37,831 nt of DNA from Candidatus Pelagibacter communis (GTDB taxonomy: Bacteria > Pseudomonadota > Alphaproteobacteria > Pelagibacterales > Pelagibacteraceae), in the NCBI GenBank assembly GCA_001180065.1, contig CVSM01000113.1, forward strand, positions 1 to 37,831. The letters run 5' to 3'. Shown piece by piece: positions 3,156 to 32,732 of the stretch (position 1 is the first letter of the stretch; every line of letters starts with the position of its first letter). Position numbers and translations under genes: made by a program. Below the pieces are notes generated by a model. That model was given only the letters and a program-made list of their open reading frames with translations. It was not told the DNA's origin and ran no database searches.

Positions 3156-4908
3156 AATTAGTTTTGTATTATTTTTTATAATAATACTTTCTGGGACACC
3201 TTCGTATTCGGAAGAGCAACCTGTAGACATTTGGAACCTTGAAAAAAAAGAAGTTGAGAAGAAAATTACAAACGATAATACAAATACTTCCCAAAACAAT
3301 AGTGAAATTCAAACATCTACAGAATCAAGTATTTTTTCTTTACAGTCCTCTAATGATAATGATTTAATTTTACAGGATAAGAAAATAGAGTCACAAGAGA
3401 TAAAAATAATTGGTCTGTACGATCCTGAGGATTATGGGTTAGATATTAATATGTGGTCAAATTCTAATGGTGATCAACTAAAAAATATTTTTTCAAATTT
3501 AGCAAAAATAGATTTTTCTGACGATGCAACTGAGATTATGAATATTTCTATGTTAACAAATGCATATCTTCCTCAGAAAAATATATCAGAGAAAGAATTT
3601 TTGAAATTTAAATCTGATTGGTTAATTAAAAATAATAATCTTGAATTAATTGAAGAATATTTGATTAAAAATCAAATTATTAATATTCACCCTGAATTAT
3701 CAAAACATCTAGTAAACCAATATCTATCAGAGGCAAATATTAATAAATCTTGTAGTTTCTTCTCAAAAAATATTGAACCAATTAAAGATGAATATTTATC
3801 AAAATTTAATATTTATTGTTTGATTGTTTTAGGTAAAAAAGAAGATGCTCAAATTAATCTAGACCTAAAAAAAGAATTAGGATTTAAAGATAAATATTTT
3901 GAAAATAAAATAAATTTTATTCTCGGGTATGATGATAAAGTAGATAAAAAAATATCTGAAAAAACAATCCTTGATTTTCATTTAGCACATATAACAAACT
4001 CAGAATTTTTTTTTGAACCCAAAGAATCAACTAGTAAAATTATTTGGAAATACCTTTCTTCATCAAATTTATTATATAATATTCAAGAAATTGAAATTAC
4101 AGAATTAGATCGAATTTCAACTATTGAAAAGGCTGTTCATAATGAAAATTATCCAGAAAAGGATCTATTCGAATTATATAAAAGGTTTCAATTCAACATT
4201 AATCAGTTATTGAATGCAGAAACATCTTATAAATCATTGTCTAATATTGAAGCGAGAGCATTAATTTATCAAAAAATTTTATTAGAATCTGAGATAGTCG
4301 AACAACTAAAATTATTAAAGATATTAAAAAATCTTTTTAAAAAAGATGACATCAATCAAGCTTTTAATCTCGAGCTAAAAAAGTTTTTAGCATTAATAGA
4401 CCCTTTAGATGTACCAGATAATCTAACTAGCTTTTATTATACTAATGTCACAATTGAAAAAAATTTGGAGAAAAATATAAAATTTAATAATGATATTATT
4501 CATCAATCAAAATTGATTAACTACTTTAATGGAGATTATGCGAAATCAAAAATCGAAAAAGATATCAATAATTTTTTAAAAAAAATTAAAAAAAATAAGA
4601 ACTACTTTTTATCAAAGAAAGATATTATCTTCTTAGAGTCCCTGAAGTCAGATGGCATACAAATTTCAAAAAAATTTGATGATCTCTATGAAATAAATGA
4701 CTCAGAAATACCTACAGATATTCAAGTTATGATAAATAACAACGAGGCTGGTACAGCTTTATTGCGAATAGTAGAAGTTATAGGTCAAGATGAATTGGAG
4801 AAAATAGATGAGGATACGATCTATTTTATCATTGCCACTTTAAATCAACTAGATATTGATTTTATAAGAAATAAAATTTTACTTAAAGTTCTTCCTTTAA
4901 AAGTTTAA
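3130..4908 (+). CDS. Secreted/periplasmic helical protein of unknown function
   Basis: 592 residues. It opens with a clear Sec signal peptide: basic MKISKSLNR, hydrophobic ISFVLFFIIILSG, and probable cleavage after about residue 27 (SYS/EEQ). A low-complexity Asn/Ser/Thr/Gln linker (about 49-75) follows. A long, Leu/Ile/Lys-rich, mainly helical body shows no catalytic motif I can name; it could be a solenoid of irregular helical repeats, but I cannot define a repeat unit. The start overlaps the 59-residue membrane gene by 26 nt, so the two are likely co-expressed and may act together at the inner membrane/periplasm. def follows 23 nt downstream. Function unknown. Confidence 0.8.
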   Translation: MKISKSLNRISFVLFFIIILSGTPSYSEEQPVDIWNLEKKEVEKKITNDNTNTSQNNSEIQTSTESSIFSLQSSNDNDLILQDKKIESQEIKIIGLYDPEDYGLDINMWSNSNGDQLKNIFSNLAKIDFSDDATEIMNISMLTNAYLPQKNISEKEFLKFKSDWLIKNNNLELIEEYLIKNQIINIHPELSKHLVNQYLSEANINKSCSFFSKNIEPIKDEYLSKFNIYCLIVLGKKEDAQINLDLKKELGFKDKYFENKINFILGYDDKVDKKISEKTILDFHLAHITNSEFFFEPKESTSKIIWKYLSSSNLLYNIQEIEITELDRISTIEKAVHNENYPEKDLFELYKRFQFNINQLLNAETSYKSLSNIEARALIYQKILLESEIVEQLKLLKILKNLFKKDDINQAFNLELKKFLALIDPLDVPDNLTSFYYTNVTIEKNLEKNIKFNNDIIHQSKLINYFNGDYAKSKIEKDINNFLKKIKKNKNYFLSKKDIIFLESLKSDGIQISKKFDDLYEINDSEIPTDIQVMINNNEAGTALLRIVEVIGQDELEKIDEDTIYFIIATLNQLDIDFIRNKILLKVLPLKV

Positions 4909-4931
4909 AAATTAGTTTATTTATTTAATTC

Positions 4932-5456
4932 ATGAGTATTAAAGATATAATCACAGTTCCAAGCGAAATTCTAAAAAAAAAATCAGAACCAATAGAAAAA
5001 GTTGGTAAGAATGAAAAAAAATTAATTAAAGATTTATTTGATACAATGTACGCTTCAAAAGGAATTGGATTAGCAGCGGTTCAAGTTGGTATTCTTAAAA
5101 GAATTTTAGTAATTGATGTGTCTAATAAAGATGAGCAGAAAAAACCAATTAGCCTTATCAATCCTATAATTAAAAGACTTAGTGATGATACCTCTGTTTA
5201 TGAAGAAGGATGCTTATCAATTCCAGAAACTTTTATTGAAATTGAGAGACCCAAGATATGTGAAATTGAATATATTGATTTAGACGGCAATAAGAAAGAA
5301 TTAAAATGTGATGGTTTAATGTCTACTTGTGTTCAACATGAAATTAATCATTTAGATGGAAAACTAATTATTGATCATTTATCTAAACTAAAAAAAGATT
5401 TCATTATTAAAAAAATTTCAAAACTACAAAAAAATCCAGATAGAGTAATAGTTTAA
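4932..5456 (+). CDS. def: Peptide deformylase
   Basis: Removes the N-formyl group from nascent proteins. All three signature motifs are present: GIGLAAVQ (residues 44-51), EGCLS with metal ligand C94, and QHEINHLDG with H136, E137 and H140 (HExxH). At 174 residues it is a normal bacterial enzyme. It sits 2 nt upstream of fmt, the enzyme that adds the same formyl group to initiator Met-tRNA, which is the usual def-fmt pairing. Confidence 0.98.
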   Translation: MSIKDIITVPSEILKKKSEPIEKVGKNEKKLIKDLFDTMYASKGIGLAAVQVGILKRILVIDVSNKDEQKKPISLINPIIKRLSDDTSVYEEGCLSIPETFIEIERPKICEIEYIDLDGNKKELKCDGLMSTCVQHEINHLDGKLIIDHLSKLKKDFIIKKISKLQKNPDRVIV

Positions 5457-26670: not shown

Positions 26671-26988
26671 ATGCTTATAGATTTCAAAGATGAAGATTTT
26701 GAAAACAAAATTAAAAGTGAAGACGTTTCAGTAATTCAGTTTAGCGCTGCTTGGTGCGGCCCTTGTAAGTCTCTTAAACCAGTTATGGATAAACTTGCAG
26801 TTGAGTATAAGGACAAAGCTGGTTTTTATTACGCTGATATAGAAGATGGTGGTATTAACACAGGAAGTGCTGCTGGAATAAGAGGCGTTCCAACAGTGAT
26901 AATCTATAAAAAAGGTGTTGAGGTTGATAGAAAAGTTGGTGGGGTTCCTGAAAGTCAAATGAAAGAATTTTTAGAAAAAAATATTTAA
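26671..26988 (+). CDS. trxA: Thioredoxin
   Basis: 105 residues with the redox motif AAWCGPCKSLKP (C29, C32), the conserved cis-Pro P74 in RGVPTVIIYKKG, and the thioredoxin fold length. It reduces disulfides in cytosolic proteins such as ribonucleotide reductase. It differs from E. coli Trx1 by DIEDGGINTGSAAGIRG before the cis-Pro loop. It is convergent with folC (4-nt overlap); trxA-folC-accD-trp is an alphaproteobacterial neighbourhood. Confidence 0.93.
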   Translation: MLIDFKDEDFENKIKSEDVSVIQFSAAWCGPCKSLKPVMDKLAVEYKDKAGFYYADIEDGGINTGSAAGIRGVPTVIIYKKGVEVDRKVGGVPESQMKEFLEKNI

Positions 26989-28250
26989 TTTAAGTTTAAT
27001 ATTTCACCAGCTAAATATAAAGATCCTGTAATTATCAAAATATCATTTTCTTTAAGCGACAAGTTTTTAATTGCTTTCTCAATATTTTCCTCATAATTAA
27101 CGTTTAAAACATTTTTAAATTTTTCTTTCAATTTTTTACCACTGATAGCATTTTGTTGATTAGGGATGTCAACAGTGGTTATAGATGAAATTTCTTTAAA
27201 GTAGCTAATATATTTTTCATGATCTTTATTAGACATCATTCCTATAATAAAATGCTTATTACAATCTAAAGTTTGAAGATACTCATTTAAAACCCTAGCG
27301 CCATCTTCATTATGACTTCCATCTAACAATAATTTGTTATTTTTGATTAAATCTTTAATTTTTCCAGACTTTATTTCTTGTAATCTGCCAATACTTTTTA
27401 TTTTGGTAATTCCTTTTTTTATATCATCATCCTTAATTTCTAAATTTAGATGTCTTATCGATGCTATTGCTGTTGAAATATTTTCTAACTGAAATTGTCC
27501 AAGAATATTTGGTAATGGTAGTTTTAACCCACCAAATTTATCTTCATAATAAAAAAAACCATTCTCTCCATTAGAATAACTATAATCTTCATTAAAGAAC
27601 AATTTATTAGATAAGTTTTGTGAAATTGATTTTTTTATACTTTCAGTTGTTTTAATTGAGCTTTGTTTAGATACAATTATATTTGAGTTTAAAAGAGATG
27701 ATGTTTTTTCAAATACAATTTTCTCAATTGTTTGCTGATTTTTTGGCAACCAATCAAGATGATCTTTACTTATTGAGCATACTATACTAGCTAAATTACT
27801 TTTAAGAATGTTTGTTGCATCAAATCTATGAAATAATCCTGCCTCAATAAGATTAATGTTGTCAGGATATTTAGCTGACTCAAAGAAATAACATGCTGTT
27901 AGCATCTCAAAAAATGTAATTTGTTGATTATCATTAATTTTTTCAACTTTTTCAAAAAGATCAGCTAATTTTTCATCATCTAATTCTTGGTTATTAAAAA
28001 TATATCTTTCATTAATTTTCTGAATATGAGGACTAGTATAAATATTGCATTTATATTTTGACTCTTTAAGGATTGCAAAAATTGCATTTATCGTTGATTG
28101 TTTACCATTAGTACCCACTACAGAAATTGCTTTAATTTTGTCTTGAGGATTACCTAATTTTTTACATAGTGTTTTTATACGATCAAGGCTTAGATCAATT
28201 TCTTTAGGATGCAGCTTTTGTAAGCGATTGAGTATCTTCTGAAGTTTCAT
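26985..28250 (-). CDS. folC: Folylpolyglutamate/dihydrofolate synthase
   Basis: Mur-ligase-family enzyme adding glutamate to dihydropteroate and folates. 421 residues. The opening LQKLHPKEIDLSLDRI is family-typical and supports the start despite a 47-nt overlap with accD. The P-loop is GTNGKQST (46-53) where most have GTNGKGS. Later are EAGLFHRFDATN (family ExGLGGRLDATN), SKDHLDWL and LLDGSHNEDGARVL. The changed P-loop residue and the FH for GG are noted but do not by themselves mean loss of activity. Confidence 0.93.
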   Translation of the reverse strand: MKLQKILNRLQKLHPKEIDLSLDRIKTLCKKLGNPQDKIKAISVVGTNGKQSTINAIFAILKESKYKCNIYTSPHIQKINERYIFNNQELDDEKLADLFEKVEKINDNQQITFFEMLTACYFFESAKYPDNINLIEAGLFHRFDATNILKSNLASIVCSISKDHLDWLPKNQQTIEKIVFEKTSSLLNSNIIVSKQSSIKTTESIKKSISQNLSNKLFFNEDYSYSNGENGFFYYEDKFGGLKLPLPNILGQFQLENISTAIASIRHLNLEIKDDDIKKGITKIKSIGRLQEIKSGKIKDLIKNNKLLLDGSHNEDGARVLNEYLQTLDCNKHFIIGMMSNKDHEKYISYFKEISSITTVDIPNQQNAISGKKLKEKFKNVLNVNYEENIEKAIKNLSLKENDILIITGSLYLAGEILNLN

Positions 28251-29133
28251 TTTCCTCAGAATTTATAACAGAATTTTTCTTTAACAATATCGATAATAAA
28301 GTTCCAATTTTTTCTGATAGATTTTTTCTTTCAACAATCAAGTCAACAAATCCTGTTTTTTCAACATATTCGCTTTTTTGAAAACCCTCAGGAAGTTCTT
28401 CTTTAACAGTTCCTTGGATTACCCGAGCTCCTGCGAAAGCAATTAGAGCACCAGGCTCAGCAATATGAATATCACCTAACATCGCATAAGACGCTGTAAT
28501 TCCTCCAGCAGTAGGATCAGTAATACAAACTAAATATGGAAGATTATTATTTTTTAATTCATTAATTGCTAAAGTCGTTCTTGTCATTTGTGATAAAGAA
28601 ATTAGACTTTCCATCATTCTCATCCCACCACCAGAACTTACACATAAAAAAGGTGTTCTATTTTCTATTGCATATTGAATACCGTACAAAAAAGCCTCAC
28701 CTTCTGCTGCTGCCATTGAAGCACCTAAAAATTCAAAATCTGAAGCAACTGCAGTAATCTTAATATTATTTATTGATCCAGATACAACCATCATTCCACA
28801 ATCCATATCAGTTTTTTTTCTAGCACTTTTTAATCTAACTTTATACGATTTAGAGTCAGTCCAATTTAAAGGATCATCTTTTGGAATTGGTGTTTTAAAT
28901 ATTTGATAATTATTTTTTCCAAACAAAATATCAAATCTTTGTTTAGGATTTATTCTGTGATGTTTATTACAATCAGGGCAAACCCAAAGATTTTCTTCTA
29001 ATTTTTTTTTTAGAATTGGACCTCTACAACATGAAGTCCAATCACTATTAGCCATGTCTTCTTTTGTTGCTCTTTTGTGGATAGCAGATTTAATTTTTTC
29101 GCCTGCTTTGATTATTTTAGTTATCCAATTCAT
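28204..29133 (-). CDS. accD: Acetyl-CoA carboxylase carboxyltransferase subunit beta
   Basis: Beta half of the carboxyltransferase that makes malonyl-CoA for fatty acid synthesis. 309 residues. An N-terminal metal-knuckle region has C35-C36 and C52-x-x-C55 (VCPDC); the first pair is adjacent rather than CxxC. The crotonase-like core shows SSGGGMRMMESLISLSQMTR, VCITDPTAGGITASYAMLGD and IAFAGARVIQGTVKEELPEGFQ. A Ser/Glu-rich tail ends the protein. It starts 4 nt inside trpA and overlaps folC by 47 nt. Confidence 0.95.
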   Translation of the reverse strand: MNWITKIIKAGEKIKSAIHKRATKEDMANSDWTSCCRGPILKKKLEENLWVCPDCNKHHRINPKQRFDILFGKNNYQIFKTPIPKDDPLNWTDSKSYKVRLKSARKKTDMDCGMMVVSGSINNIKITAVASDFEFLGASMAAAEGEAFLYGIQYAIENRTPFLCVSSGGGMRMMESLISLSQMTRTTLAINELKNNNLPYLVCITDPTAGGITASYAMLGDIHIAEPGALIAFAGARVIQGTVKEELPEGFQKSEYVEKTGFVDLIVERKNLSEKIGTLLSILLKKNSVINSEENETSEDTQSLTKAAS

Positions 29134-29933
29134 TTTATTTCTTTTATTAATTTTTTTACCACATTAGTAACATTTGTGACGATATTTTGTCTTTTTTTAA
29201 TTGAGTTAGTTATTTCTTTACAAATCGCACTTCCAACAACTAATCCATCAGCTTTTTTGAGAGACTTTATAGTTTTTTCGGTTATTCCGAATCCTATAAC
29301 TACGTTTTTAGATAAATTTTGTTTTTTTATTTTTGAATATTCCTCTAATATTTTTTTTGGAGAAACTTTTAATTTTCCTCCGGTCGTAGATAACATACTA
29401 ATATAATAAATCATATCATGGGAATTTTTGACAATTTGTTTTAAACGTGTTCTTGATGTAGTGGGTGAAATAAGCTGAATAAAATTAATATTTTTTTTTT
29501 TACACTTTTCAGCAAAATTTTTGTTTTCAGGAAATGGCAAATCTACAACAATAAGACCATCTACTTGTGATTTTTGACATCTTTTAATAAATTTATTTTC
29601 ATCATATTGATAAATCATATTGTAATAACCCATTAAAATAATTGGTTTGTTTTTATTAAGTTTTTTAAATTGACCTGCAATTGAAAAAACGTCATTAATT
29701 TTAATTCCATTTTTGATTGCACGATAAGCGCTAGTTTGAATCTGACCACCATCAGCAATTGGAGTGTTATGAGGAAAGCCTAATTCACAAATATCAGCAT
29801 ATTTAGAGATTGATTTTAATATTTCTAATGATTTTTTTTTTGTATTATCCCCAGCGACTATATATGTCAGTAAAGCTGGTCTATTTTCACTCTTTGTAAT
29901 TTTGAATGTTTGATGAATTAAAGAATTATTCAT
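29130..29933 (-). CDS. trpA: Tryptophan synthase alpha-chain homologue
   Basis: TIM-barrel lyase that releases indole from indole-3-glycerol phosphate. 267 residues. The catalytic pair is retained: E50 in CELGFP and D61 in PIADGG. Loop 6 with Thr and the substrate Tyr are present in YYISMLSTTGGK (family YYVSxxGVTGAR), and VIGFGI and DGLVVGSAI bind the phosphate. Differences: NTP for the usual SDP, and STTGGK for GVTGAR. The start overlaps the trpB stop by 1 nt. It is probably partnered with the divergent TrpB upstream. Confidence 0.9.
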   Translation of the reverse strand: MNNSLIHQTFKITKSENRPALLTYIVAGDNTKKKSLEILKSISKYADICELGFPHNTPIADGGQIQTSAYRAIKNGIKINDVFSIAGQFKKLNKNKPIILMGYYNMIYQYDENKFIKRCQKSQVDGLIVVDLPFPENKNFAEKCKKKNINFIQLISPTTSRTRLKQIVKNSHDMIYYISMLSTTGGKLKVSPKKILEEYSKIKKQNLSKNVVIGFGITEKTIKSLKKADGLVVGSAICKEITNSIKKRQNIVTNVTNVVKKLIKEIK

Positions 29934-31162
29934 TAATATTTTCCTAATCTTTGTTTTAATATATCTCTATCTTTTTTTGCATCTCCACAAGAGTTCACAA
30001 TACAAATCGTATCTTTACTTAATTTGGGAGCAATTTTAATTGCTTCTGCAAAAGCATGACTAGGTTCTAAACTTGGGTTTAATTTTTCAAATTTTGTTAC
30101 TAATTTGTATGCACTTAAAGCCTCCTCATCAGTTGCAAAAGTATATCTTGCTCTTTTTGTATCTTTCAAAAAACAATGAATTGGACTTACTCCAGGATAG
30201 TCTAAACCAGCACTAATTGACTCTGTTTCGTGAATTTGACCTTCATTATTTTGACAAACATAAGATGCAGCACCATGTAGAACTCCAATTTTAGCATCTC
30301 TGCTCAAGGGTGCAGCGTGTAATTTTGAATTTTTTGGACCACCTGCTTCGACACCAATTAATTCAATCTGTTTTTTGCTATAATCAATAAATTCACTCCA
30401 AAAACCATAAGCAGAACTACCACCCCCTACACAGTTGATAAGCTTAATTTTTTTTGGCATTTTTTTAAATTTTTTTATTAATTGAATCTTTAATTCTCTT
30501 GAAATTTGAGCAGTACTCCATCCACAAATTTTTACAAAAATATTTGGCCCAACTGTGGAGCCTACACACATATGTGTATTATCGCAGTTTGATACCCAAT
30601 ATCTCATACATTCACTTACAGCATCTACCAAAGTTTGACTTCCAGAATAAACAGGTACAATTTCAGCGCCATTTCTCCTCATTGCATCACAATTAGGTTT
30701 TTGTCTTTTAATATCTTTCGCCCCCATAAAAATTTTACACTTAAGTCCAAATTTTTTAGCAGCCATGCTCAACATCTTACCTGCATATCCAGCTCCAGTA
30801 TCACCAACAATATATTTTTTACCCATGGCTTTACATATCAAAGCATGAACAGTAGCGTTATATATTTTATGGGCTCCACCATTAGCCTCTGATACAACTT
30901 TTGCCCAAATTTGAGCTCCACCTAGATGACCAGATAGATTTTCTAATTTTACAAATGAAGTTGGAGAACCGATGTAATTTTGGAAGTAAAAATCTCTTTT
31001 TTTTATGAATTTTTTATCTTTTCTTAGTTTTTCAAATTTTATGGTTAAGTCTTCAATCGGTTTTTTAAGAGTTTCGGGAATAAAACTACCACCAAATTTT
31101 TTACCCCAAAATCCATGTCTGTCATGTTGATCAATTAAGGGGACATTTTTTTTTAATTTCAT
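29933..31162 (-). CDS. trpB: Tryptophan synthase beta-chain homologue with altered active site
   Basis: 409-residue fold-type II PLP enzyme, colinear with TrpB: GGSFIPETL near the start, GGAHK with PLP Lys K99, GGGSSA (246-251) for PLP phosphate, SAGLDYPGVSPIH, and SLEPSHA with E366. Several residues considered hallmarks differ (Salmonella numbering): E109 to Asp and Q114-H115 to Tyr-Ala (DTGAGYAG, 121-128), HPYP to NIFV, D305 to Arg (KRARY), and S377 to Cys (NSCGDAKKD). N145/K87-type scaffold and length are intact and the frame is clean, so it is under selection. It sits in the canonical trpF-trpB-trpA slot. Either a divergent tryptophan synthase or a re-purposed relative. Confidence 0.85.
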   Translation of the reverse strand: MKLKKNVPLIDQHDRHGFWGKKFGGSFIPETLKKPIEDLTIKFEKLRKDKKFIKKRDFYFQNYIGSPTSFVKLENLSGHLGGAQIWAKVVSEANGGAHKIYNATVHALICKAMGKKYIVGDTGAGYAGKMLSMAAKKFGLKCKIFMGAKDIKRQKPNCDAMRRNGAEIVPVYSGSQTLVDAVSECMRYWVSNCDNTHMCVGSTVGPNIFVKICGWSTAQISRELKIQLIKKFKKMPKKIKLINCVGGGSSAYGFWSEFIDYSKKQIELIGVEAGGPKNSKLHAAPLSRDAKIGVLHGAASYVCQNNEGQIHETESISAGLDYPGVSPIHCFLKDTKRARYTFATDEEALSAYKLVTKFEKLNPSLEPSHAFAEAIKIAPKLSKDTICIVNSCGDAKKDRDILKQRLGKY

Positions 31163-31163
31163 A

Positions 31164-31781
31164 TTATAAATTTTTCATTTTATTTAAAAAAATATTTATT
31201 TTGGAAACATCTTTTAATCCATCAGTTTCTAATCCACCAGATATATCAACAATATGTGCTATTTTATTTAAATTTTCAAGATCGTCATCAACTTGAATAT
31301 TACCAGCAATCATAACTTCTTTATTTAGATCTAATTTTTCTATAAGTGTGTGATTAAATGACATGCTATTTTCGTATCCTTTGCTATCAAATAAATAAAT
31401 ATCCGTTGTATCAATAAACTTTTTGTATTTATTTACATCTCCAATATCATTTATTGTTATTGCAGTAATAATTTTCTTTTTATATCTTTCTTTTATTGAT
31501 TTTATTTTACTAGGGTCACAATCATAAAGTTGATAATAGTCGAATGGCATTCCATTAATTTCTTCTAGAATATTTTGATTAGGATTCACAAGGACTGCTA
31601 CATAGAAAGAATTTTTTTTTTCAATTTTCATAAGTTCTTTTAGTTTTTTAATATCAACATATCTTTTCGATTTTGGATAATTAACAATAAATCCTATAAA
31701 CTGTGGAGGGTGGTTATGATTAACAATAAAATTTAATACTTTAGGATCTGAAACCCCACAAATTTTAGACTTTAGCGTCAT
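31164..31781 (-). CDS. trpF: Phosphoribosylanthranilate isomerase homologue
   Basis: 205-residue TIM barrel. Catalytic Cys in KICGVS (C8) and catalytic Asp in LFDSKG (D132) are present, with FIGFIVNYPKSKRYV and VAVLVNP as in TrpF and VDISGGLET near the end (family VDVSSGVE). QLYD (84-87) replaces the near-constant QLHG, and the Gly-rich loop GGTGKxFDW after the catalytic Asp is replaced by a non-Gly stretch (YENSMSFNH). IAGNI replaces LAGGL. It starts 4 nt inside pyrF and ends 1 nt before trpB. Confidence 0.83.
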   Translation of the reverse strand: MTLKSKICGVSDPKVLNFIVNHNHPPQFIGFIVNYPKSKRYVDIKKLKELMKIEKKNSFYVAVLVNPNQNILEEINGMPFDYYQLYDCDPSKIKSIKERYKKKIITAITINDIGDVNKYKKFIDTTDIYLFDSKGYENSMSFNHTLIEKLDLNKEVMIAGNIQVDDDLENLNKIAHIVDISGGLETDGLKDVSKINIFLNKMKNL

Positions 31782-32452
31782 TGTTTTAAATGATCGATTA
31801 ATCTATTTATATTTTTTTTGATATTACCTTTTGTTATAGGCCTTCCTATTACAAGCCAATTGCTTCCATTTTTAAAAGCTTGTTTTGGTGTTAAAGTTCT
31901 TTTTTGATCATTATTTTTTGAATTAAATCTTATTCCAGGAGTAATAATTTCTTTTTTAAAAACTTTTTTAACAATATTAACTTCTTGAGCGCTACAAACT
32001 ATTGCATCTAATTTAGCCTTCGAAGCTAGCTTTGCCTGGTGTAAAACTAGTTTTTTAACATCTTTATTAAAACCAATTTGCTTTAAAGCTTTGTTATCCA
32101 GTGACGTTAATACAGTCACTCCTGCTAGTTTAATTTTTCCAGATACTTTTTTTGAAAAGGATAAAGCTTTCAGTCCCGAACTAATATGTATCGTTAAATA
32201 ATCTATTCTCAGGTCTTTGATTGCATTTATTGCAGAAACACATGTGTTTGGAATGTCATGAAGTTTTAGATCTGCAAAAATAATCTTATTTCTTAATTTC
32301 GATATAAAATTTCTTCCATTTTTTGAATTTAAAAATTCAAGACCAAATTTATATCCAATTTTTAAGTTCGAACTCTGTGTTTTTTTTATGATTTCTTTAA
32401 TTTTAAAAACATTAGTGTTGTCACAAGCAATGAATATTTTATTCTTTCTCAT
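31778..32452 (-). CDS. pyrF: Orotidine 5'-phosphate decarboxylase
   Basis: Last step of UMP synthesis. 224 residues with the catalytic array D61-x-K63-x-x-D66 in FADLKLHDIPNT, plus D11 and K35 from the first strands, TVLTSLD, and the phosphate-binding GIRFNSKNNDQKR and WLVIGRPIT at the end. The start overlaps ihfB by 14 nt and the stop overlaps trpF by 4 nt. Confidence 0.96.
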   Translation of the reverse strand: MRKNKIFIACDNTNVFKIKEIIKKTQSSNLKIGYKFGLEFLNSKNGRNFISKLRNKIIFADLKLHDIPNTCVSAINAIKDLRIDYLTIHISSGLKALSFSKKVSGKIKLAGVTVLTSLDNKALKQIGFNKDVKKLVLHQAKLASKAKLDAIVCSAQEVNIVKKVFKKEIITPGIRFNSKNNDQKRTLTPKQAFKNGSNWLVIGRPITKGNIKKNINRLIDHLKQ

Positions 32453-32732
32453 TATTTAATTTTTTAAACAAATCTTTAGCCATTTTGAAGTGAATTGTTT
32501 TTTTTTCAGGAGTATTTACCTTTTCTCCTGTTTTAGGGTTCCTTGAAATTCTCGCTTTTTGGACATTAGATGAAAAAACTCCAAAACCTCTAAGTTCAAC
32601 TCTCTCATTTCTTTTTAGGGTTTGTTTTATTTCTTTTAAAATAATGTTGATAAATTTTTCTAAGTCTTTTTTAAGAAAATTTGGATAATTTTTTGAAAGT
32701 TGTTTTAAAAGCTTTGATTTTACAATAGCCAA
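32439..32732 (-). CDS. ihfB: Integration host factor beta subunit (TTG start)
   Basis: 97-residue HU/IHF-fold DNA-bending protein. VELRGFGVFS and RISRNPKTGEKVNTPEKKTIHFK (short pieces shown) carry the beta-arm with the intercalating Pro region RNPKTGE. Position after rpsA is the standard ihfB locus, favouring IHF-beta over HU. The family N-terminus (AIVKSKLL) aligns with TTG at 32732, 3 nt after the rpsA stop. It bends DNA at promoters and recombination sites. Confidence 0.9.
   Translation of the reverse strand: MAIVKSKLLKQLSKNYPNFLKKDLEKFINIILKEIKQTLKRNERVELRGFGVFSSNVQKARISRNPKTGEKVNTPEKKTIHFKMAKDLFKKLNNEKE

Follow-up and report, generated by a model that had tools for sequence, protein, structure and literature searches.

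The trpB-type gene at positions 29,933 to 31,162 of the window (the whole stretch analysed, 37,831 nucleotides, contig CVSM01000113.1 of Candidatus Pelagibacter communis) very probably encodes the working beta subunit of the SAR11 tryptophan synthase, an enzyme whose indole site has been rebuilt and whose coupling between subunits is altered. We put the probability of this reading, in which the activity is deduced from the sequence, at about 0.86. SAR11 is a very common bacterial group in the sea. The genome of the window belongs to it (835 kb, 150 contigs, 71% complete), and almost all of the 80 named loci nearest to the window are titled Pelagibacteraceae or Candidatus Pelagibacter. The gene is read on the minus strand, from 31,162 down to 29,933, where the plus strand is rich in stops. 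The preliminary description rightly took its frame to be intact: it has an ATG start and zero internal stops. The genes around it are the following:

26985..28250, minus strand: folC, downstream neighbour (profile search)
28204..29133, minus strand: accD, downstream neighbour (275.6 bits, below the cut-off of 317.45)
29130..29933, minus strand: trpA; E50 (E49) and D61 (D60) are kept, and T57 (29763-29765) stands at the equivalent of D56
29933..31162, minus strand: trpB-type beta subunit, SAR11 variant, 409 aa (ORF, profile, structure matches)
31164..31781, minus strand: trpF (best model 105.5 bits, below its cut-off of 216)
31778..32452, minus strand: pyrF, upstream neighbour (profile search)

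A short ORF (32439-32732) occupies the position of himD in the gene order of Kagan et al., a match by position alone. The genes trpE, trpG, trpD and trpC, whose presence the preliminary description had left to be checked, lie together on another contig (C15) of the same genome. A second canonical trpB, also raised there, was not found in this 71% complete genome: it has three PALP matches, and the TrpB query finds only itself.

The window TrpB scores 387.4 bits with the NCBIfam profile TIGR00263 (trpB), below the curated cut-off of 392.45, and members of the same clade fall on both sides of this value (L034 passes with 406.5 bits, L035 fails with 345.5). The profile TIGR01415 (trpB_rel), a distant homologue that we take to be of the TrpB2 kind, gives only 85.1 bits for a cut-off of 518.85. 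The protein is 38% identical to the TrpB of E. coli. Its AlphaFold2 model is confident (pLDDT 88.7, pTM 0.89); in a Foldseek search each of the 50 PDB matches listed is a tryptophan synthase chain, with TM values of 0.86-0.92 relative to the query. With TrpB1 (TIGR00263; E. coli, Salmonella, Pyrococcus furiosus) the SAR11 protein shares the fold, the adjacent TrpA partner, the PLP lysine K87, the GGGS phosphate loop, E350 and the R141-D305 switch pair. It differs from TrpB1 by E109D, Q114Y/M, H115A/N/F, N89Y, K167V, Y186M, N236S, R379D, and the replacement of HPYP. Two of these differences affect features of canonical TrpB1: E109 within ETGAGQHG, which is DTGAGYAG in the window, and beta-K167 facing an acidic alpha-56, replaced by Val or Ile facing Thr, Ala, or Cys. 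On these two counts we do not file the SAR11 TrpB as a canonical TrpB1. Its family score indicates that it derives from TrpB1 stock, and it is expected to work like TrpB1.

To follow these residues beyond the window, we used a census of the order, a set of 117 Pelagibacterales genomes of which 96 bear the variant, and of the 80 named loci, which are the closest matches to the window. Loci L002, L004, and L165-L169 were left out as repeat fetches of genomes already in the set. Positions 109 and 167 are gapped in the partial gene of L267, and L258 lacks TrpA. Residues are numbered as in E. coli TrpB, our reference, which has the same numbering as Salmonella TrpB. The equivalent sites in the window are:

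30866..30868, minus strand: K99, the PLP lysine K87, kept (alignment)
30800..30802, minus strand: D121, position of the catalytic E109 (alignment, census)
30782..30787, minus strand: Y126-A127, positions of Q114-H115 (alignment, census)
30626..30628, minus strand: V179, position of K167 (alignment, census)
30533..30544, minus strand: N207-V210, NIFV replacing HPYP (alignment)
30413..30415, minus strand: S250, position of N236, PLP phosphate loop (alignment, census)
30200..30202, minus strand: D321, the equivalent of D305, kept (alignment, census)
30065..30067, minus strand: E366, the equivalent of E350, kept (alignment, census)
29987..29989, minus strand: C392, position of S377 (alignment)

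The PLP lysine, the phosphate loop, and E350 had been described as kept, and this holds across the order: K87 is present in 95 of the 95 genomes with the residue, GGGS in 96 of 96 (GGGSS in the window), and E350 in every genome with the residue, as is N145. The Asp noted at E109 is equally general (all 95 order genomes in which the residue is present, and all 80 named loci). The Tyr-Ala pair noted at Q114-H115 is found in the window, and both positions are changed order-wide: Q114 is Tyr in 89 genomes and Met in 6, and H115 is Ala in 88, Asn in 4, and Phe in 3. NIFV was correctly read in the window and HPYP is replaced throughout the order, but not always by NIFV. Position 195 varies most (Asn in 40, Thr in 37, Ala in 17, Met in 1), position 196 is Ile in 83 genomes and Val in 13, and position 198 is Val in 83, Ile in 10, and Leu in 3. 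The claim that D305 had become Arg was wrong. Its equivalent is D321, within SAGLDYPGV. Asp occupies this site in all 96 variant genomes of the order and in all 80 named loci, and the partner R141 is retained in the same 80 loci and in 95 of the 95 order genomes that have the residue. The Cys at S377 is real, but it is no anomaly: 36 of the 63 distinct canonical-type TrpBs also have it. We thus rejected the idea that Cys377 points to a dehydratase.

Several changes were absent from the preliminary description: N89Y (94 of 95 order variant genomes), K167 replaced by Val (94) or Ile (1), Y186 by Met (88), Leu (7), or Ile (1), N236S (96 of 96), R379D (91 of 96), and the matching change at alpha-56. 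In addition, A108 is Gly in 91 genomes and Thr in 4. The changed positions are uniform over the 80 named loci. The 63 canonical-type TrpBs—a panel with a canonical bias, as it was taken from the best-scoring matches (L135-164, L170-176, L188-211)—agree at 92 positions; 58 of these are retained in 95% or more of 120 variants, and the other 34 fall below that level. Taken with the dN/dS given below, this pattern exceeds what chance would produce. At 25 sites the panel has one residue and the variants another, nearly fixed one. Low-scoring divergent TrpBs of other Alphaproteobacteria (e.g., G181, G190, G252, and G334) are outside the panel.

One could propose that these changes reflect the neutral drift of a small-genome lineage, in a tryptophan synthase of normal chemistry whose mechanism and signalling were not rebuilt. 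SAR11 proteins of this region are indeed divergent in general, with median identities to the window of 0.63 for TrpF and 0.54 for PyrF in the named loci. However, TrpB has the highest median of the five genes (0.90, with 0.88 for AccD and 0.82 for TrpA), its new residues are nearly uniform, and the 25 sites switch from one canonical residue to another that is nearly fixed. We regard drift as an improbable explanation.

The changes in TrpB are accompanied by one in its partner. In the variant genomes, TrpA retains E49 (175 of 175 in the census) and D60 (174 of 175), and its positions 183, 184, 211-213, and 234 are kept in 119 of 119. In the textbook enzyme, alpha-D56 and beta-K167 form a salt bridge. 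In variant TrpA, position 56 is Thr, Ala, or Cys. A table of 187 rows shows Lys at beta-167 with Asp or Glu at alpha-56 in 67 of 67 cases (two of them identical canonical rows that had been dropped from the panel above) and Val or Leu with Thr, Ala, or Cys in 120 of 120. The census of the order and named loci gives 175 rows with Val, Ile, or Leu facing Thr, Ala, or Cys, nine with Lys facing Asp or Glu, and two that could not be scored (one gapped at 167, one without TrpA). These rows are related: the trees described below look like one joint change of both positions on the variant stem and another in L047, and the independent events behind the coupled change would be few, not 120. Both D56 and K167 are described, in the available text of PMC8187860, as contacting beta-Tyr279, a residue on the wall of the indole channel. 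In two genomes the TrpA match adjoining an intact variant TrpB is broken by a stop or a split (G107:C7:64121-64432 and G031:C5:58381-59141), possibly through sequencing error.

TrpB was found in 106 of the 117 order genomes and a TrpA match in the same 106 (fragmentary in G031, G051, and G107); the remaining 11 have neither. The sole TrpB match of G078 (E 2.3e-4) was excluded from this count. The variant accounts for 96 of the 106. TrpC is above its family cut-off in 92 of the 117. Three genomes that are 94-96% complete (G078, G101, and G106) have trpC and lack trpA and trpB, from either a missing contig or a loss of the last step. Outside the order, identity to the window TrpB is at most 46% among the listed matches in 385 genomes of the class (five of them Pelagibacterales), and residue 109 was read there in the fetched loci L170-176. 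The dN/dS of TrpB between the window and six close relatives is 0.03-0.07.

We rejected decay, in agreement with the preliminary description. Its proposal that the enzyme is still a tryptophan synthase, rebuilt at the active site, also gains from the same evidence: the order-wide fixation, the purifying selection, the finding of a sole TrpB, a TrpA with its catalytic residues, the other trp genes of the window genome, and the natural exchange of trpBA in place (see below) all point to it. External observations are consistent with it. Kagan et al. (2008) found in HTCC1062 one trpB, with the gene order seen here and in a distinct cluster, and concluded that it must be functional (PMC2395257, available text). 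Artificial seawater has supported growth of the strains HTCC1062 and HTCC7211, with additions—pyruvate, glycine (or oxaloacetate), methionine or DMSP, vitamins, and once glycine betaine—that do not list tryptophan, in texts where the vitamin mix is not itemised (PMC5069961; PMC8437039). Because of the paired TrpA, the dN/dS, the structure matches, these growth media, and the conclusion of Kagan et al., tryptophan synthesis is the best reading of the variant.

These observations also bear on the idea that the protein is a pseudoenzyme, which would have lost tryptophan synthesis and would only bind TrpA for the release of indole, as does TSB-like of eudicots. The likeness lies in the TrpA kept by SAR11 and in the indole-activating glutamate at position 109, which TSB-like has lost and SAR11 has changed; the plant protein is thus the closest cautionary case. 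Yet the available text of PMC12727527 gives TSB-like as having Ala (or Ser, Pro) at this Glu and Glu at the switch-pair Asp, next to a canonical TSB. SAR11 has Asp at both positions, a second TrpB was not found in the SAR11 genomes searched, and isolates grow in media without listed tryptophan. A pseudoenzyme is extremely improbable.

The preliminary description had also allowed for a TrpB turned to another beta-replacement or elimination reaction. A serine deaminase would be one example, an O-phosphoserine-dependent synthase another; such an enzyme would fit the altered indole pocket and, in the comparison made in that description, the Cys377 of some dehydratases. But this Cys is common in canonical-type TrpBs, a TrpA match with its catalytic residues accompanies TrpB in 106 of 106 TrpB-bearing genomes of the order, the interface change is coupled across beta-167 and alpha-56, and other trpBA pairs fill the same slot. 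Moreover, trpEGDC would be left without their last step, and SAR11 without a known enzyme for it, yet isolates grow without listed tryptophan. The option gained no positive support and we consider it highly improbable.

In the favoured reading, the SAR11 TrpB and TrpA would condense indole and L-serine on PLP. Glu109 is described as stabilising the charge at N-1 of indole, and its role as essential (PMC9512447; also PMC12727527, for the indole-activating glutamate), while Gln114 is given as maintaining the closed state via N145 and R148 (PMC9512447), all from the available portions of these texts. The title of Brzovic 1992 states that the change of Glu109 to Asp alters the specificity and activity of the Salmonella enzyme. 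In SAR11 the activating carboxylate is retained as Asp109, one carbon shorter than Glu, and would still polarise the N-H of indole. The residues that we place around it (89, 108, 114, 115, 186, 196, and 198) have been exchanged as a set, nearly uniform in the order. The bulky Tyr89 and Tyr114 and the small Ala115 and Gly108 may repack the pocket around the shorter side chain and preserve the same chemistry; this repacking is our guess from the residues. Both sides of the D56-K167 contact now carry uncharged residues, and signalling between alpha and beta would proceed without that salt bridge. The changes would have arisen on one long stem branch and then been held by selection.

The phylogenetic trees agree with such a stem. 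In the TrpB tree (49 rows), the 23 variant rows form one clade with support 100/100, whose stem, at 1.16 changes per column, exceeds every branch within it; L034 and L047 are long branches of unsure placement, and some rows have an odd letter composition. The TrpA tree recovers the same clade (17 rows, stem of 1.34), with warnings for L054 and L047 and for the composition of seven non-SAR11 rows. The AccD and PyrF trees of the same loci scatter the trpBA types. In four genomes of the window's genus (G026, G103, G024, and G082), other kinds of TrpB and TrpA occupy the slot between trpF and accD. These TrpBs are 27-36% identical to that of the window, and the AccD and PyrF of the same genomes group with those of the family. 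The flanks recombine too, and it looks as if genes were often replaced in this slot.

We can go further, tentatively and at somewhat less than even odds. The SAR11 TrpBA may have been re-engineered, with its own indole activation (Asp109 in a Tyr89/Tyr114/Ala115 pocket), a coupling without the D56-K167 salt bridge, and a different specificity for donor or indole or different kinetics, perhaps for scarce serine. SAR11 lineages would swap whole trpBA pairs of differing design in one fixed slot, the unit of replacement being the pair and not the single gene. The deep SAR11 TrpB cluster has been known since 2008. It is the same as ours, and the available text of that account deals with neither active-site residues nor the coupling to TrpA. 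We found no residue-level account of SAR11 or Pelagibacter trpB or tryptophan synthase in the literature searched, where the paper of Kagan et al. was the one relevant match listed. Tryptophan synthase has long served for the study of substrate channelling and allostery. A natural clade under strong selection, with Asp109 and with D56-K167 replaced on both sides, can be used to test which of its rules are general. It also provides a natural starting point for TrpB enzyme engineering and a caution on motif-based annotation in SAR11.

Other TrpB kinds in the order are themselves diverse. Those of L041 (G026), L045 (G103), and L046 (G024), genomes of the window's genus with TrpB near 4001-5150, have Gln at D305 and canonical residues at E109, Q114, H115, and K167; the paired TrpAs have Glu at D60 and Glu at 56. 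In L042-L044 (G027, G085, and G089), the switch pair of TrpB is changed on both sides, with Asn at D305 and Leu at R141. The TrpB of L047 (G082) is very divergent, sharing 27-28% identity with the window TrpB; it carries Leu at K167, Asn at H115, and Met at Q114, and its partner has Thr at alpha-56. Within the pyrF-trpF-trpBA-accD-folC slot, very long AccD branches were observed in L022, L034, L036, and L051.
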